Below, in pieces: positions 3,554 through 11,618 of a stretch of DNA of 11,618 nucleotides (the first letter of the stretch is position 1; each line of letters starts with the position of its first letter). The position numbers and the translations under genes were made by a program. Origin of the DNA: a bacterium (GTDB lineage Bacteria; Spirochaetota; UBA4802; UBA5550). The notes under the pieces were generated by a model. The model was given only the letters and a program-made list of their open reading frames with translations, was not told the DNA's origin and searched no databases. Location of the stretch: positions 1-11,618 of the forward strand of contig JAAENB010000375.1 in the NCBI GenBank assembly GCA_024224995.1, in the 5' to 3' direction.

Positions 3554-4159
3554 TTACTGCTTTATAGTTAACCGGACCCCTTCCGGAGTCCTCTCCACCC
3601 GGATACGTTCTTCCTCAATCATCACATAACACTCATGGATCACCCGGTACTGAGCGTCCTTAACCTCGAGTCCATATGGCGTCACATCCATGATGTCGCT
3701 CACCCACTCATCTCTGAGCGTATTGGGCACCAATTGCAGCACATGCGTTCTCACCTGGGGCGACGTATTGGCAAGCGCTGTTTTAAGGATCTCGTGATCT
3801 ACCCGGTCAAACAGAAGCTGTAAAGCGTCACGATCCAACAGGAGAATATCTTCAAAAATAAAAATATTCTGTTTAAGCGTTTCCGCGAAGTCCGGGTCAT
3901 TATTTTCAAGCTCACCAAAAACTCGAAACGCCGTATTATTATCAACATAGGTTAGAATATTCACCACTTCGGGCAGTGTTAAGCGGGCATTGTACCGGGT
4001 CAGGAAATCAACCCCGCCTGCGATCTTATTGATACCGGCAAGGAGCGATTCATTGAATGTGCTACCGGACTGAACGGACTTACAAAGAGCAAGCTGCTCA
4101 TATAATGAGAGCCGTTCAAAAACGTACGCCCCGTTACTGATGTTTTCTATCGATTTCAT
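3554..4159 (-). CDS. Possible separately translated FliG-like protein (internal start of the fused gene)
   Basis: Within the sigma-FliG gene and in the same frame, ATG at 4159 (residue 201 of the long protein) follows AAAGGAGG by five bases, the strongest SD in the operon. Initiation there would give a 201-residue protein holding all of the FliG-like part and none of the sigma factor. The position is just where a normal ECF protein would end. The out-of-frame pair TAA TGA sits just before the SD, as it would at the end of an ancestral upstream gene. The fused reading frame could therefore be a recent fusion, or a fusion plus a free second product. Whether initiation occurs here cannot be told from sequence. 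Confidence 0.45.
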   Translation of the reverse strand: MKSIENISNGAYVFERLSLYEQLALCKSVQSGSTFNESLLAGINKIAGGVDFLTRYNARLTLPEVVNILTYVDNNTAFRVFGELENNDPDFAETLKQNIFIFEDILLLDRDALQLLFDRVDHEILKTALANTSPQVRTHVLQLVPNTLRDEWVSDIMDVTPYGLEVKDAQYRVIHECYVMIEEERIRVERTPEGVRLTIKQ

Positions 4160-4759
4160 GATTTCCTCCTTTGTGTCATTAAGCTGCTGATAATCATATT
4201 CAAGGCCCTGGTACAAATGCGGGATCTGCTGCTTTATTTTTTGACGGGCTTCATATAAGCGGCTTTTAACCCGTTTCTCATCAACACCGCAGGCTGCCGA
4301 TATTTCCTGGTAAGAAAGCCCTGCGAAATATTTTAACTGGATAACGTCCCTCAATTCCTGCTTGAGCAGGGCAATAGCCACCCGCAGGGAATCGAAATAA
4401 TTTTCCCACTCCGACTCAACCTGCTCATGAGCCATAACAATTCCCGATACTTCCTCTGAAATCTCATGCTCATTGAGCTTTTTTTTATCTCCCTGGTAAG
4501 CATAGACGCAGTTTTTGCAAATGGCATATAACCATTGACTGAAATTCTCCGGAGAGTTAAGGGCATGGAGGTTTAACCAGGCTTTTAAAAAAGTCTCCTG
4601 TACAATATCGCCCGCGTCTGCCTGAGACTCTGCCCGGGGCATAACATATCCATACATCCGGCGCTGGTAGCGGATAAGCAGTTTTTCAAAAGCAGGCTGG
4701 CTGCCCTGCCCTGCGGCAATGACCAGGGCAATTTCTTTTTCTTTTGATTCGCTTTTCAT
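3554..4759 (-). CDS. ECF sigma factor fused to a FliG-like C-terminal domain
   Basis: 401 residues, about twice the length of a normal ECF sigma factor. Residues 24-65 are sigma region 2 (FEKLLIRYQRRMYGYV, then DAGDIVQETFLKAWLNL). Residues 125-176 are region 4 with its helix-turn-helix (LSYQEISAACGVDEKRVKSRLYEARQ, 148-173). An ordinary ECF protein would end near residue 190. Instead, residues about 240-386 resemble the FliG middle-end and C-terminal domains: VVNILTYVDNNTAFRVF, ELENNDPDFAETLKQ, IFIFED (299-304, the MFVF hinge of FliG), then LLLDRDALQLLFDRVDHEIL and a DAQ...I helix. In an ungapped comparison from memory with E. coli FliG, torque residues K264, R281, D288 and R297 fall on A330, T347, S354 and G363, so it is probably not a motor part. 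Only 12 bases follow the PAP2 stop and the SD is weak, so translation is likely coupled. An internal SD/ATG lies at residue 201. Confidence 0.88.
   Translation of the reverse strand: MKSESKEKEIALVIAAGQGSQPAFEKLLIRYQRRMYGYVMPRAESQADAGDIVQETFLKAWLNLHALNSPENFSQWLYAICKNCVYAYQGDKKKLNEHEISEEVSGIVMAHEQVESEWENYFDSLRVAIALLKQELRDVIQLKYFAGLSYQEISAACGVDEKRVKSRLYEARQKIKQQIPHLYQGLEYDYQQLNDTKEEIMKSIENISNGAYVFERLSLYEQLALCKSVQSGSTFNESLLAGINKIAGGVDFLTRYNARLTLPEVVNILTYVDNNTAFRVFGELENNDPDFAETLKQNIFIFEDILLLDRDALQLLFDRVDHEILKTALANTSPQVRTHVLQLVPNTLRDEWVSDIMDVTPYGLEVKDAQYRVIHECYVMIEEERIRVERTPEGVRLTIKQ
4165..4172 (-). promoter_or_regulatory. Internal Shine-Dalgarno sequence, AAAGGAGG
   Basis: An eight-base match to the anti-SD, five bases before an in-frame ATG, lies inside the coding sequence at the sigma/FliG domain boundary. 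In the long protein these bases encode part of TKEEI, so coding constraint alone does not require such a strong match. Confidence 0.6.
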
Positions 4760-4771
4760 ATTACAGCATCA

Positions 4772-5482
4772 CTACCACGGCGCGAACGGTCCAAAAATAT
4801 ACGGATCAAGAAAACGGATATCACGGAACAAGACGGACATCTCCACGAGAAATCCCATAAACAGCATCTCTCCCACCCAGTGATACCCGATCATTGACTG
4901 TACAGTACTAAGAATCTTACTAAAAAAATTCCGTTTCAGCAAGGAAAATATCAACAAATGCGCCAGGAATCCAATCAAAATTCCCGCAGCGATATCGGAT
5001 ACATAGTGCAAGCCCGTTGCGATACGAAAAAAACCATTACAGAGAACAGCCAGGAAAAACGCGGAAAGACCAATCTTTTTGTTCAGCGAAAAAAGCCCCA
5101 GGGAAAAGGCCGTAAGAAAGGCGGCATGATCCGAAGGGAACGAGCCCCATTGAAGATAAACCGGCTTGCTTGCGAAATAATGAAAAAAAACCTGAGACAT
5201 TTTCAAGGAAGCCGAATCCGGGTGTATGGGCTTTGGCACCGGCCAGGTACTGCTAATAATCCACACCGGGATTAAGGCAGCAGCGCAGGAGACTATGGCG
5301 GCTAAAATCTTTATCCGCGCCCTGTCATCCTGCCGGAACCAGGCGTAAATAAAAAACGGGGTAAACAAAAGCGCTTTGGTAAAATTGCTCTCTGCAAGTC
5401 CAACAAGAAAAGCCTGAAGCCGGGTGAAGTCTCCCAGGAAAGCGGCGATTTTTTCCGCCAGAAATATATCAAACTGCGTCAT
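4772..5482 (-). CDS. PAP2-family membrane phosphatase
   Basis: A 236-residue multi-pass membrane protein from ATG at 5482, with AGGA eight bases upstream. A TTG at 5512 would add ten residues (LLARNRTEE...) but has a poorer context. PAP2 phosphatases cleave lipid phosphates such as undecaprenyl diphosphate or phosphatidic acid, with the active site facing out. Motif 2 is FPSDHAAF (Pro116-His119; PSDH replaces the commoner PSGH). Motif 3 is FRIATGLHYVSDIAAG with Arg153, His159 (nucleophile) and Asp163. Motif 1 (KxxxxxxRP) is poorly conserved; only PVPKPIHP near residue 84 is in the right place. About five or six TM segments are visible. The gene overlaps the methyltransferase by 14 bases and is followed 12 bases later by the sigma-FliG gene. 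Fold is confident; the lipid substrate is not known. Confidence 0.85.
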   Translation of the reverse strand: MTQFDIFLAEKIAAFLGDFTRLQAFLVGLAESNFTKALLFTPFFIYAWFRQDDRARIKILAAIVSCAAALIPVWIISSTWPVPKPIHPDSASLKMSQVFFHYFASKPVYLQWGSFPSDHAAFLTAFSLGLFSLNKKIGLSAFFLAVLCNGFFRIATGLHYVSDIAAGILIGFLAHLLIFSLLKRNFFSKILSTVQSMIGYHWVGEMLFMGFLVEMSVLFRDIRFLDPYIFGPFAPW

Positions 5483-6251
5483 TTCTTCTGTCCTGTTTCG
5501 CGCTAATAACAAACCGCCTGCTCCAGGGATAACAACGCCCGCCCTTAAAGGAGCCGTGAATTTCCTGAAGAGAAAAACCGTTTTCCCTGAGTAGGGTTTT
5601 AAGTTTGCGAAGCGGAAGAAATTTTAAGCGGTCTTGAAAACGCAGCACAGAACCTTCCGGGTCTTTCAGCTCAAAGTTTTCCAAAACACAGCCCTCTTCC
5701 CTATCCCACCGGAGAGAGCTCTTTAAACCGGCGCCGGTTTTGCCAAGACTTCCCGAGAGTCCGGGCAGGTATCGCAATAAACGGAGCAGAAGGGAGCCCC
5801 GGGCAAAGTCAAGGAGCAGCAGGCCGTCTGGAACAAGAAGACGGGCGATATTTTTCAGAAGAAGGGTTTTATCTTCATGGGAAACGGCATAGCCAATGGA
5901 GCTCCAGGCAAGGATTATTCCGTGAAACCTGTTATCACCCTGCGGCGCGTCAGGGATCGCGCAAACCTCAAATGAACAATTGGAAATATTTTTATTATCA
6001 AAAAAACTTTCTGCCGCTTTAACTCTTTCAGAGGAAGCGTCTGTTCCGTGAACGGGAATTCCCGATCGCGCCAGGTCTAAAAGGAGACGGCCGTATCCGC
6101 AGGCCAGCTCACAGACAGGCCCATCCACGTGCTTTAATTTATTCGTATACCAATTCCGCGTTTCATCAAGGAGCCGCGCCCGAGTAACGGAAAGACCGGC
6201 CCAGTTCAGTTCGAGATAAGGGGCCAGATCATAGATGCCGGGATTCCCCAT
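5469..6251 (-). CDS. Class I SAM-dependent methyltransferase
   Basis: A 260-residue Rossmann-fold methyltransferase. Motif I is VCELACGYG (46-54), the acidic residue at the end of strand 2 is Asp71 (HGTDASSERV), motif IV is FHGIILAWSS (109-118), and the post-motif strand is LLVPDGLLLLDFA (138-150). The C-terminal half (160-260) holds a beta-rich part, FELKDPEGSVLRFQDRLKFL, often seen in small-molecule methyltransferases. The ATG has no clear SD. It overlaps the stop of the upstream 47-aa gene as TGATG, so it is probably translated by coupling. The C-terminus overlaps the PAP2 start. The operon suggests a lipid or envelope substrate, but nothing in the protein identifies it. Confidence 0.85.
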   Translation of the reverse strand: MGNPGIYDLAPYLELNWAGLSVTRARLLDETRNWYTNKLKHVDGPVCELACGYGRLLLDLARSGIPVHGTDASSERVKAAESFFDNKNISNCSFEVCAIPDAPQGDNRFHGIILAWSSIGYAVSHEDKTLLLKNIARLLVPDGLLLLDFARGSLLLRLLRYLPGLSGSLGKTGAGLKSSLRWDREEGCVLENFELKDPEGSVLRFQDRLKFLPLRKLKTLLRENGFSLQEIHGSFKGGRCYPWSRRFVISAKQDRRNDAV

Positions 6252-6394
6252 CAGGCGATTAAACTATAGATGATATACCCTGCTCCGCCGATTGTTGCGG
6301 AAATTCCAATGAGGGTAACCAGGCATGTTGCTCGAATTCGAGGTGTTTTTTCTATTCTTTCTATTTTTTCTTCTTTATTTTTTTCATCTTTCAT
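6251..6394 (-). CDS. Small single-TM protein, 47 aa
   Basis: ATG at 6394 has AAGGA seven bases upstream. The product begins with a highly charged helix (MKDEKNKEEKIERIEKTPRI, residues 1-20) and ends with a hydrophobic segment, about 23-47 (LVTLIGISATIGGAGYIIYS). A single membrane anchor with the N-terminus in the cytoplasm fits the positive-inside rule, with R19/R21 next to the membrane. Its TGA stop overlaps the methyltransferase ATG (TGATG). The combined evidence of SD, coupling and amphipathic/TM layout supports a real gene despite its size. It may tether or regulate an operon partner. No family is recognised. Confidence 0.72.
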   Translation of the reverse strand: MKDEKNKEEKIERIEKTPRIRATCLVTLIGISATIGGAGYIIYSLIA

Positions 6395-6415: not shown

Positions 6416-6443
6416 AAACTATCAAAAAGTTTCATAGTGTCAA
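6416..6443 (-). promoter_or_regulatory. Candidate operon promoter
   Basis: A perfect -35, TTGACA, lies at 6443-6438 on the minus strand. The best -10 at 16 bases is TAGTTT (6421-6416), a 3 of 6 match. It is the only likely promoter upstream of the 47-aa gene and would give a leader of about 15 bases. Confidence 0.4.
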
Positions 6444-6809: not shown

Positions 6810-7014
6810 CGGGGTCTGTTTTGCGAAGATGCTCCGGCCAGGGTTTCGTTCTGAGAGACGTTGCAGTGCAACGCCTTTACTGGCTGGTTTCTGGCCAGGG
6901 CTATGGAGATTCCGGGAAGGGTGCGACCCTGCGAGGGTGCGACCCTGCGAGGGTGCGGCCCCGGGACAACATCCCCGGGAACAGGCCCGTAGAGGCGTTG
7001 CACTGCAACGTCTC
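6810..7014. repeat. Dispersed inverted-repeat element, copy 2 (opposite orientation)
   Basis: The 22-bp inverted repeats at 6855-6876 and 6993-7014 are identical to those of copy 1. The conserved flank (GATACCGGGGTCTG...) extends left to about 6810. The element reads as the reverse complement of the copy at 2344-2552, with a different middle. It contains a 16-bp tandem repeat GGGTGCGACCCTGCGA at 6919-6934 and 6935-6950, plus a third partial copy, which copy 1 lacks. A related array follows the inverted repeat at the right end of the window. Confidence 0.85.
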
Positions 7015-7039
7015 TGAAACCAACCCCCCGGACAAAAAA

Positions 7040-7067
7040 CCTCGAACCTCGAACCTCGAACCTTGAA
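7040..7067. repeat. Heptamer tandem repeat, CCTCGAA x4
   Basis: Four tandem units of seven bases; the last is CCTTGAA. The array starts 26 bases after the inverted repeat of copy 2 and ends 13 bases from the stop of the gene at 7081-7776. Similar in style to the short tandemly repeated repetitive (STRR) heptamers described in cyanobacteria. Confidence 0.85.
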
Positions 7068-8847: not shown

Positions 8848-9519
8848 ATGCAAAAAAGATTAATTGTACTATTTTTTATCACACTGCTTATTCCCCTCTC
8901 CTTTATGGGGTGTGACCGGGAATCATTATATGACCTCACATCAAGCAGCGAAACCAGCGATGACTCCTCAGATGAATCCTGCACAATCAGTTTCAGCCTT
9001 GAAGAGGGTGTTTACAACAGCGATATTTCCATAGAACTCTCCACAGAAACGGAAGACGCTGAGATACGATATACCATAAACGAGAGTGAACCAACAACGG
9101 AGTCAACGGTATACAGTGGTCCCATTACGGTTAGCCCGGGAACAATATACTCGTTAACAATGATCAAGGCTATCGTTGTTTTATCCGGCGAGATATGCGG
9201 TGAGGCGGCGGAAGCGTCCTATGAAACCAGCGGTACTACGGTGATGGCTCCCTTTGTTATTTTTGAAGATGACCCGGACAATGAAAATCTATTCCAGGTA
9301 AAACTGCTAACAGCGCCGGAAGACGGCACAATATATTATACCACTGACGGAACTGATCCCTCAACAAGTTCAACTGAATACTCGGATGTATTCCCCATGG
9401 GAACAGGCTCATCGTTTACGATCAAAACCTATGCGGTTTATTCCGGCATGGCGGACAGCAGCACAACAACAGCGGAATATGACGCCGACACAGGAGAGTA
9501 TTCCGTTGTAACAGAATAA
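8848..9519 (+). CDS. Lipoprotein with two chitobiase/hexosaminidase C-terminal-type domains
   Basis: 223 residues. The lipoprotein signal peptide is LIVLFFITLLIPLSFMGC, with Cys22 as the lipidation site, followed by a Ser/Asp/Glu-rich tether (23-46). Two Ig-like beta domains follow at about 48-127 and 134-211. Each has the hallmark (I)RYT/YYT, a short turn, then (E/D)PT/PST..S..Y: IRYTINESEPTTESTVYSG at 73-91 and IYYTTDGTDPSTSSTEYS at 162-179. This is the CHB_HEX_C-type domain found in tandem in many secreted and outer-membrane proteins, where it acts as a spacer or carbohydrate-associated module. No catalytic domain is present. The protein is acidic. The SD is AAGG, eight bases upstream. Transcription probably ends at the terminator at 9607-9651. 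Confidence 0.9.
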   Translation: MQKRLIVLFFITLLIPLSFMGCDRESLYDLTSSSETSDDSSDESCTISFSLEEGVYNSDISIELSTETEDAEIRYTINESEPTTESTVYSGPITVSPGTIYSLTMIKAIVVLSGEICGEAAEASYETSGTTVMAPFVIFEDDPDNENLFQVKLLTAPEDGTIYYTTDGTDPSTSSTEYSDVFPMGTGSSFTIKTYAVYSGMADSSTTTAEYDADTGEYSVVTE

Positions 9520-11315: not shown

Positions 11316-11618
11316 ACATTTAAAACCGGGGCTTCCTTCATCATAACGAGGGGCTGGAAGCCCCACGTTATGAGAAAACCCATCACCCTGGTGAACTTAT
11401 TTATAAACAGAGCCTGTTCCCGGAAGATTTTATCCGGGGTTATGCTCTGCTGCCCCTTGGGGTTAAAACCCCGGGCTAAAATTGAATCAAATACAAAAAC
11501 TTTTGCGCCCCTTCCGGAATCCCCATAGCCCTGGCCAGAAACCAGCCAGTAAAGGCGTTGCACTGCAACGTCTCTCAGAACCAAACCCCTCGCAGGGATC
11601 GCACCCCTCGCAGGGGTC
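11316..11618. repeat. Repeat-rich non-coding region with dispersed element copy 3 (partial)
   Basis: No gene is supported here. A 31-base hairpin lies at 11342-11372 (CATAACG/CGTTATG and GGGGCT/AGCCCC with an A-A mismatch and loop GGA). GGGGTTAAAACCCC at 11459-11472 is a second dyad. From about 11505 the block GGAATCCCCATAGCCCTGG and the inverted repeat at 11553-11574 match copy 1 in the same orientation. After it, a CCCCTCGCAGGG-type tandem array runs off the right edge, while no left inverted repeat was found upstream. Short open frames crossing this DNA are repeat-derived. Confidence 0.75.

Follow-up and report, generated by a model that had tools for sequence, protein, structure and literature searches.

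A predicted ECF sigma factor with a FliG-derived C-terminal domain that may act as a built-in regulator

The window, as we call the whole stretch of 11,618 nt analysed here, carries on its minus strand an open reading frame in which a predicted ECF sigma factor continues into a domain related to FliG. The features of this gene and of the three frames next to it are listed below.

3554..4759, minus strand: P0001, 401 aa, predicted ECF sigma factor fused to module M and FliG_CN/hinge/FliG_CC (open frame, Pfam, PDB sequences)
4496..4672, minus strand: sigma region 2, residues 30–88 (Pfam PF04542; VIA-align rows to ECF region 2 structures)
4235..4390, minus strand: sigma region 4, residues 124–175 (Pfam PF08281)
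4385..4411, minus strand: motif EWENYFDSL, residues 117–125, where the region 4 helix begins (pattern EW[ED]xYFDxL)
3977..4174, minus strand: module M, residues 196–261, helical in the model, common to VOC-type ECF factors
4157..4171, minus strand: candidate internal start, AAGGAGG (4165–4171) five bases ahead of the Met201 ATG (4157–4159)
3866..3976, minus strand: FliG_CN (ARM_C) homologue, residues 262–298 (hhalign 99.4%, 2.9e-21 against 14 FliGs)
3848..3865, minus strand: hinge IFIFED, residues 299–304, counterpart of the MFxF hinge of FliG
3599..3847, minus strand: FliG_CC homologue, residues 305–387, without the torque charges
4772..5482, minus strand: PAP2-family membrane phosphatase with an ATG start (a TTG start would lie at 5512), 12 bases from the ECF gene (Pfam PF01569, 7.2e-11)
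5469..6251, minus strand: SAM methyltransferase overlapping the PAP2 gene (Pfam PF13649, 7.3e-14)
6251..6394, minus strand: frame of 47 aa, likely with a single membrane helix, a sequence reading without homology support; its stop overlaps the methyltransferase start (TGATG)

These genes share a strand and either overlap or lie 12 bases apart, which suggests that the 47-aa frame, the methyltransferase, the PAP2 phosphatase and the ECF gene form one operon, possibly with the 47-aa frame as its first gene. An alpha/beta hydrolase follows the ECF gene after 169 bases. A sigma70-like match at 6425–6398 lies just three bases from the start codon of the 47-aa frame, a distance at which the site as placed could not serve that frame; the scan for such sites found 10 where 4.6 were expected. 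The ECF-type promoter pattern GGAAC-N15-19-CGTC had no match in the window, and a looser pattern had five against 4.55 by chance; autoregulation is therefore unsupported. The original prediction had tentatively linked the sigma factor to a lipid or envelope operon. This link is one of position only, through the tight spacing with the phosphatase and methyltransferase genes; no target promoter rose above chance. In the 10 other window proteins scanned by Pfam, a set that leaves aside the 47-aa peptide, neither an anti-sigma nor a flagellar family turned up, and for the neighbours NCBIfam also gave no anti-sigma family. Scans of the window with Rfam and for tRNA genes found nothing.

The window also holds a dispersed repeat of about 85 nt in both orientations. 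Three of its copies are 94–95% alike (2435–2520, 6836–6924 and 11505–11588) and a further pair is 82% alike (2312–2394 and 6964–7046); with its near-palindromic core, GTTGCAGTGCAAC, it looks mobile or REP-like. Four 40-nt repeats at 136–625, spaced at exactly 150 nt and 63–73% alike to the first, are perhaps a decayed coding repeat. On the plus strand, 8848–9519 encodes a lipoprotein-like protein with matches to CHB_HEX_C and Fn3_assoc, two stretches each.

That a single frame joins ECF regions 2 and 4 to a FliG-derived domain was borne out by sequence and profile searches. Pfam assigned Sigma70_r2 to residues 30–88 (1e-10), Sigma70_r4_2 to residues 124–175 (1e-12) and FliG_C to residues 283–387 (2.3e-14, 54 bits against a cut-off of 23.3), all above the curated cut-offs, and the ECF superfamily model TIGR02937 of NCBIfam matched the front half at 3.4e-27 (95.1 bits, cut-off 42.9). 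Among PDB sequences, P0001 retrieved ECF factors over residues 11–181 and several FliG structures over residues 264–376, while its last 140 residues alone retrieved FliG 1lkv at 4.6e-9. Profile-profile comparison of the stretch claimed to be FliG-like matched residues 262–396 to FliG (hhalign). We thus consider the fusion confirmed at the sequence level: P0001 is a predicted sigma factor with a true FliG_C domain.

The borders of the FliG part needed revision. FliG_CN, the hinge and FliG_CC are all present, but homology starts at about residue 262 and not at 240, and the stretch 200–261, which had been taken for the FliG middle domain, is instead a separate module common to VOC-type factors (see below). 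At E≤1, Pfam found neither FliG_N nor FliG_M in P0001, in agreement with the predicted absence of the FliF-binding N-terminal domain. SnoaL and TPR domains likewise had no match in the extension at E≤1, FliG_C being found there instead. Just before sigma region 4, the pattern EW[ED]xYFDxL occurs in five of the six FliG-type factors described next and in none of 220 other proteins compared. It may serve for docking, given that a linker contact is described for ECF41 (PMC8999054, available portion).

A first search for relatives with residues 190–401 as query returned two among 770 candidates, both full fusions. An alignment of these three fusions then brought in P0004 (109 matches from 7,997 scored candidates), and P0163 and P0164 came from a third search, among the matches listed (best 120 of 613). 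There are hence at least six fusions (P0001–P0004, P0163 and P0164), each with sigma region 2, sigma region 4 and FliG_C above the cut-offs; the five others listed are 29–66% identical to P0001. With at least five further end-to-end fusions, it is excluded that relatives consistently encode the two parts as separate genes. In this organism the fusion is known from one contig, but the idea that a frameshift or a chimeric assembly joined two genes is already refuted, because at least five other proteins, each a cluster of its own and encoded on other contigs, show this architecture from end to end. When the six fusions were placed on a FliG_C tree with 15 further FliG_C rows, a branch with support 92/94, at which long branches meet, set the fusions apart from the rest.

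Other collections gave little. A search of genome contigs for relatives found one locus, matching sigma region 2 only. Viral contigs had no FliG-type locus and four loci with the VOC-type query, matching its sigma part only, and no plasmid record covered 80% of P0001, P0005, P0127 or P0114. By frame length and score, a sigma-type FliG_C fusion was absent from 296 genomes of a phylum sample for a Bacteroidetes metagenome-assembled genome (MAG), in which L002–L020 were the loci looked at more closely.

FliG_C also ends other proteins. In the Bacteroidetes MAG, L002 (154–1755) encodes a GH57 glycoside hydrolase domain followed by a C-terminal FliG_C. Three other loci (L015, 431–2257; L017, 402–2471; L018, 200–2023) encode proteins of 608–690 aa with FliG_M and FliG_C that are the sole FliG_C match of their genomes; L017 also has a FliF match just under the cut-off. 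Like P0001, these Bacteroidota proteins (the GH57 type and those of about 610–690 aa) carry FliG_C at the end of another protein. Unlike P0001, the four scanned by Pfam (L002, L015, L017 and L018) have no sigma domain, and a search for module M, run without a positive control, gave nothing in 395 genomes of a Bacteroidota phylum sample. A further protein, P0097 (605 aa), combines FliM, FliG_M and FliG_C and has three of five torque positions changed.

Module M, about 66 residues between the sigma and FliG parts, equals the sigma domains in conservation among the fusions (mean pair identity 0.45 versus 0.46–0.47). Pieces covering residues 190–285 of 18 proteins had no counterpart among PDB sequences, where the best E was 0.36, or in Pfam, where the best was 0.028 and came from 1 of 18 rows. 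The module is also present in at least 55 ECF factors whose C-terminus aligns to a VOC/glyoxalase-type domain (P0005, P0006 and P0110–P0162), and the M of these VOC-type factors matches that of the FliG type with an hhalign probability of 99.6% (2.1e-24). Among the 55 VOC-type rows, Pfam at E≤0.01 recognized the end domain as Glyoxalase in 23 and as a bleomycin-resistance family in 16, two sets that may overlap; P0006 matched the latter at 8.5e-13. The remaining assignments are by alignment to P0005 over 97–100% of its length (87% for P0162). Three of the 55 rows carry a taxon name, one being a member of the Oscillospiraceae and two of the Defluviitaleaceae.

Because module M recurs with a VOC-type end instead of FliG_C, the end domains are, as far as sequence comparison goes, exchanged between the two types behind a shared module. 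With the same M before two different C-termini, the build is modular: sigma, a proposed coupler M and a swappable end domain. A quick tree of sigma plus M, for which 14 plain ECF factors served as outgroup, places the VOC type on one side of a branch (SH-aLRT 93), and the FliG type takes two label changes, owing to the unsettled placement of P0164; no order of origin of the two end domains can be read from this tree.

The FliG middle domain itself was unsupported as an identity for residues 196–261. Against 14 FliGs, hhalign of residues 196–283 gave probabilities of 7.5 for the FliG-type and 2.5 for the VOC-type set. When hmmsearch profiles of the same stretch were run against the 14 FliGs and 1,400 shuffled decoys, one of the 14 stood out for the FliG-type set and none for the VOC-type set. 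That lone FliG, P0056, scored 17.7 bits, with no decoy as high, but it had no match at E<1 to a profile of residues 196–262 and 0.0067 to one of residues 196–283, so its match seems to rest on overlap into FliG_CN. The VIA rows of 4fhr (204–389) and 3ajc (198–388) reach into module M, and together with the P0056 score they leave room for a distant structural relation between M and FliG_M.

Within the FliG-derived part, conservation is very uneven. Across the six fusions, the FliG-conserved cells are kept in 20/36 cases for FliG_CN and 22/24 for the hinge, as against 13/48 and 25/102 for FliG_CC. The predicted IFIFED hinge counterpart is thus well founded, and mean pair identity follows the same course, with 0.79 for the hinge and 0.30 for FliG_CC, the least conserved large domain of the fusions. 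At the torque positions K264, R281, D288, D289 and R297, as named in the available text of PMC6079164, the FliG residue is present in 0, 0, 0, 2 and 0 of six fusions. With two of 30 cells retained, the torque residues are largely replaced, as had been anticipated. For comparison, P0056 keeps four of the five, P0098 and P0100 keep three, and the FliM-FliG fusion P0097 keeps two. The domain, borrowed from FliG, has lost its motor contacts and may now serve as a built-in regulator.

For a structure model of P0001 we used a 64-row alignment from which the 55 VOC-type rows were omitted to keep the FliG part undisturbed by their different end domain; an earlier four-sequence model (pLDDT 57.5) was not used for structure search. 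The model (pLDDT 88.5, pTM 0.48) contains one helix from residue 161 to 216, and its residues 301–386 fit solved FliG at 1.9 Å. End to end, the modelled sigma part fits anti-sigma-bound CnrH (4cxf) at 2.7 Å over 151 residues and SigW (5wur) at 3.9 Å over 157 residues, compared with 27 Å for RNA polymerase-bound sigmaE (6jbq). The fit was poorer for further anti-sigma complexes, namely 1or7 and 6in7 (region 2 only) and 4nqw (8.9 Å). AlphaFold may favour closed sigma forms in general, and such models are often closed. The likeness to CnrH fits a closed resting form, but given this possible bias, and a pTM of 0.48 at which the extension is loosely placed, it is weak evidence.

Several ECF groups, ECF41 and ECF42 among them, have C-terminal extensions that act as regulators (PMC8999054 and PMC3426412, available portions); according to the former, the ECF42 extension is essential and part of the ECF41 extension is needed. 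P0001 resembles these factors, as far as the accessible text describes them, in its complete regions 2 and 4, in an extension of similar length (about 200 residues in ECF42) and in having no anti-sigma gene seen nearby. It differs from ECF41 and ECF56 (SnoaL), ECF42 (TPR) and the cysteine-rich types in that its extension consists of module M and FliG_C. With FliG it shares homologous FliG_CN, MFxF hinge and FliG_CC of the same fold, but it is fused behind a sigma factor, has no FliG_N and no demonstrable FliG_M, and has lost the torque charges. With the VOC-type ECF factors it has the sigma architecture and module M in common and differs in the domain at its end. By the ECF41/ECF42 precedent, it is most likely that the extension sets sigma activity.

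On balance, we think it probable that P0001 is a one-component ECF factor in which a fused regulator, made up of M and the FliG-derived C-terminus, takes the place of a separate anti-sigma factor. That the FliG part might be a built-in anti-sigma or sensor module had been proposed from the sequence; the proposal is strengthened by the VOC-type domain in the same place of related ECF factors, and it is here still something we infer. Regions 2 and 4 would provide the output. At rest, the extension, kept near the sigma part by the helix 161–216, would hold regions 2 and 4 closed. A partner protein or ligand binding to FliG_CN-hinge-FliG_CC would then turn the hinge, as in FliG switching; the turn would move module M, with the helix passing the movement on to sigma region 4, and sigma would become free to bind RNA polymerase. 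Module M would be the conserved coupler and the last domain an interchangeable sensor, FliG_C here and the VOC type in relatives. We infer the inhibition, the role of the hinge as switch, the partner and the signal; by analogy with ECF41 and ECF42, the extension could also activate instead of inhibit.

The same gene might also make two products. According to this tentative and, in our view, rather unlikely reading, an internal start at Met201 would yield, besides the fusion, a free protein of 201 aa (M+FliG_C) able to compete with the fused copy or to pair with it. Ahead of ATG201 lies AAAGGAGGAAATC, which by anti-Shine-Dalgarno energy ranks 7th of 935 candidate starts, while the gene's own start ranks 23rd. 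Met201, at the head of module M, is invariant in 6/6 FliG-type and 55/55 VOC-type factors (61/61 aligned). The residues before this Met could encode GGAGG in 5/6 and 49/55 (54/61), as compared with 2/40 and 31/342 (33/382) at other internal Mets of the same proteins and 84/801 in other proteins. However, this compatibility was read from residues, not codons, the rows are related, and the Arg-Arg before the Met may persist for protein reasons. Stricter six-base motifs are compatible with three of six FliG-type rows. Within the window, AGGAGG-N4-9-ATG occurs twice against 0.55 expected, a number that 22 of 200 shuffles reach. AAG and GAG are the rarer codon choices in the window (0.34 and 0.37), but their succession still has a chance of 0.12 under its codon use. 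As the relatives were read as protein and are related to one another, the internal start is suggestive only. The two-product reading is compatible with a one-component ECF factor. Combining both, a new family of one-gene two-product ECF systems, with sigma, M and a swappable sensor, and with a conserved internal start that gives a free regulator at a set ratio, is a slightly more tentative idea still.

Could the FliG part retain a tie to the flagellum? Its FliG_CN portion might dock on rotor FliG_M, so that the sigma factor would be held at, or would sense, the assembled C-ring. The parts best kept, FliG_CN and the hinge, would suit this function, and there is a precedent for the docking, since FliG_CN rests on FliG_M of the prior protomer (PMC11528121, available text). 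On the other hand, FliG_N and FliG_M were not found, the torque positions are lost and no flagellar family occurs among the 10 window proteins mentioned above. In 14 of the 296 genomes of the Bacteroidetes-MAG phylum sample, FliG_C matches occur but none is better than about 1e-19 (genome completeness not given). Perhaps these 14 genomes lack a motor FliG, and for this reason FliG_C need not imply a flagellum. We consider such a flagellar checkpoint improbable. Less probable again is that the FliG part takes no part in regulation and serves only for oligomerisation or stability: the low conservation of FliG_CC would agree with this, but the hinge is far better conserved than the sequence around it and a VOC-type domain occupies the equivalent place in relatives.

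An ECF-FliG fusion was not reported among the literature matches listed, which were drawn from a coverage without the 2021 ECF classification, and the word FliG occurs 0 times in the available text of the review PMC8999054. A search for ECF, sigma factor, glyoxalase and C-terminal extension together returned no paper. C-terminal regulators on ECF factors are already known; judged by the text available from these sources, FliG_C as such an extension is a new variant.

What we describe is a flagellar switch domain reused as a likely control part of a transcription factor, in which the hinge was kept and the motor contacts were dropped. The unnamed coupler module occurs with two unrelated end domains, and domain swaps between them could be used to probe how extensions control ECF factors. 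If the internal start is true, the arrangement would be a compact way for one gene to make both a sigma factor and its regulator.
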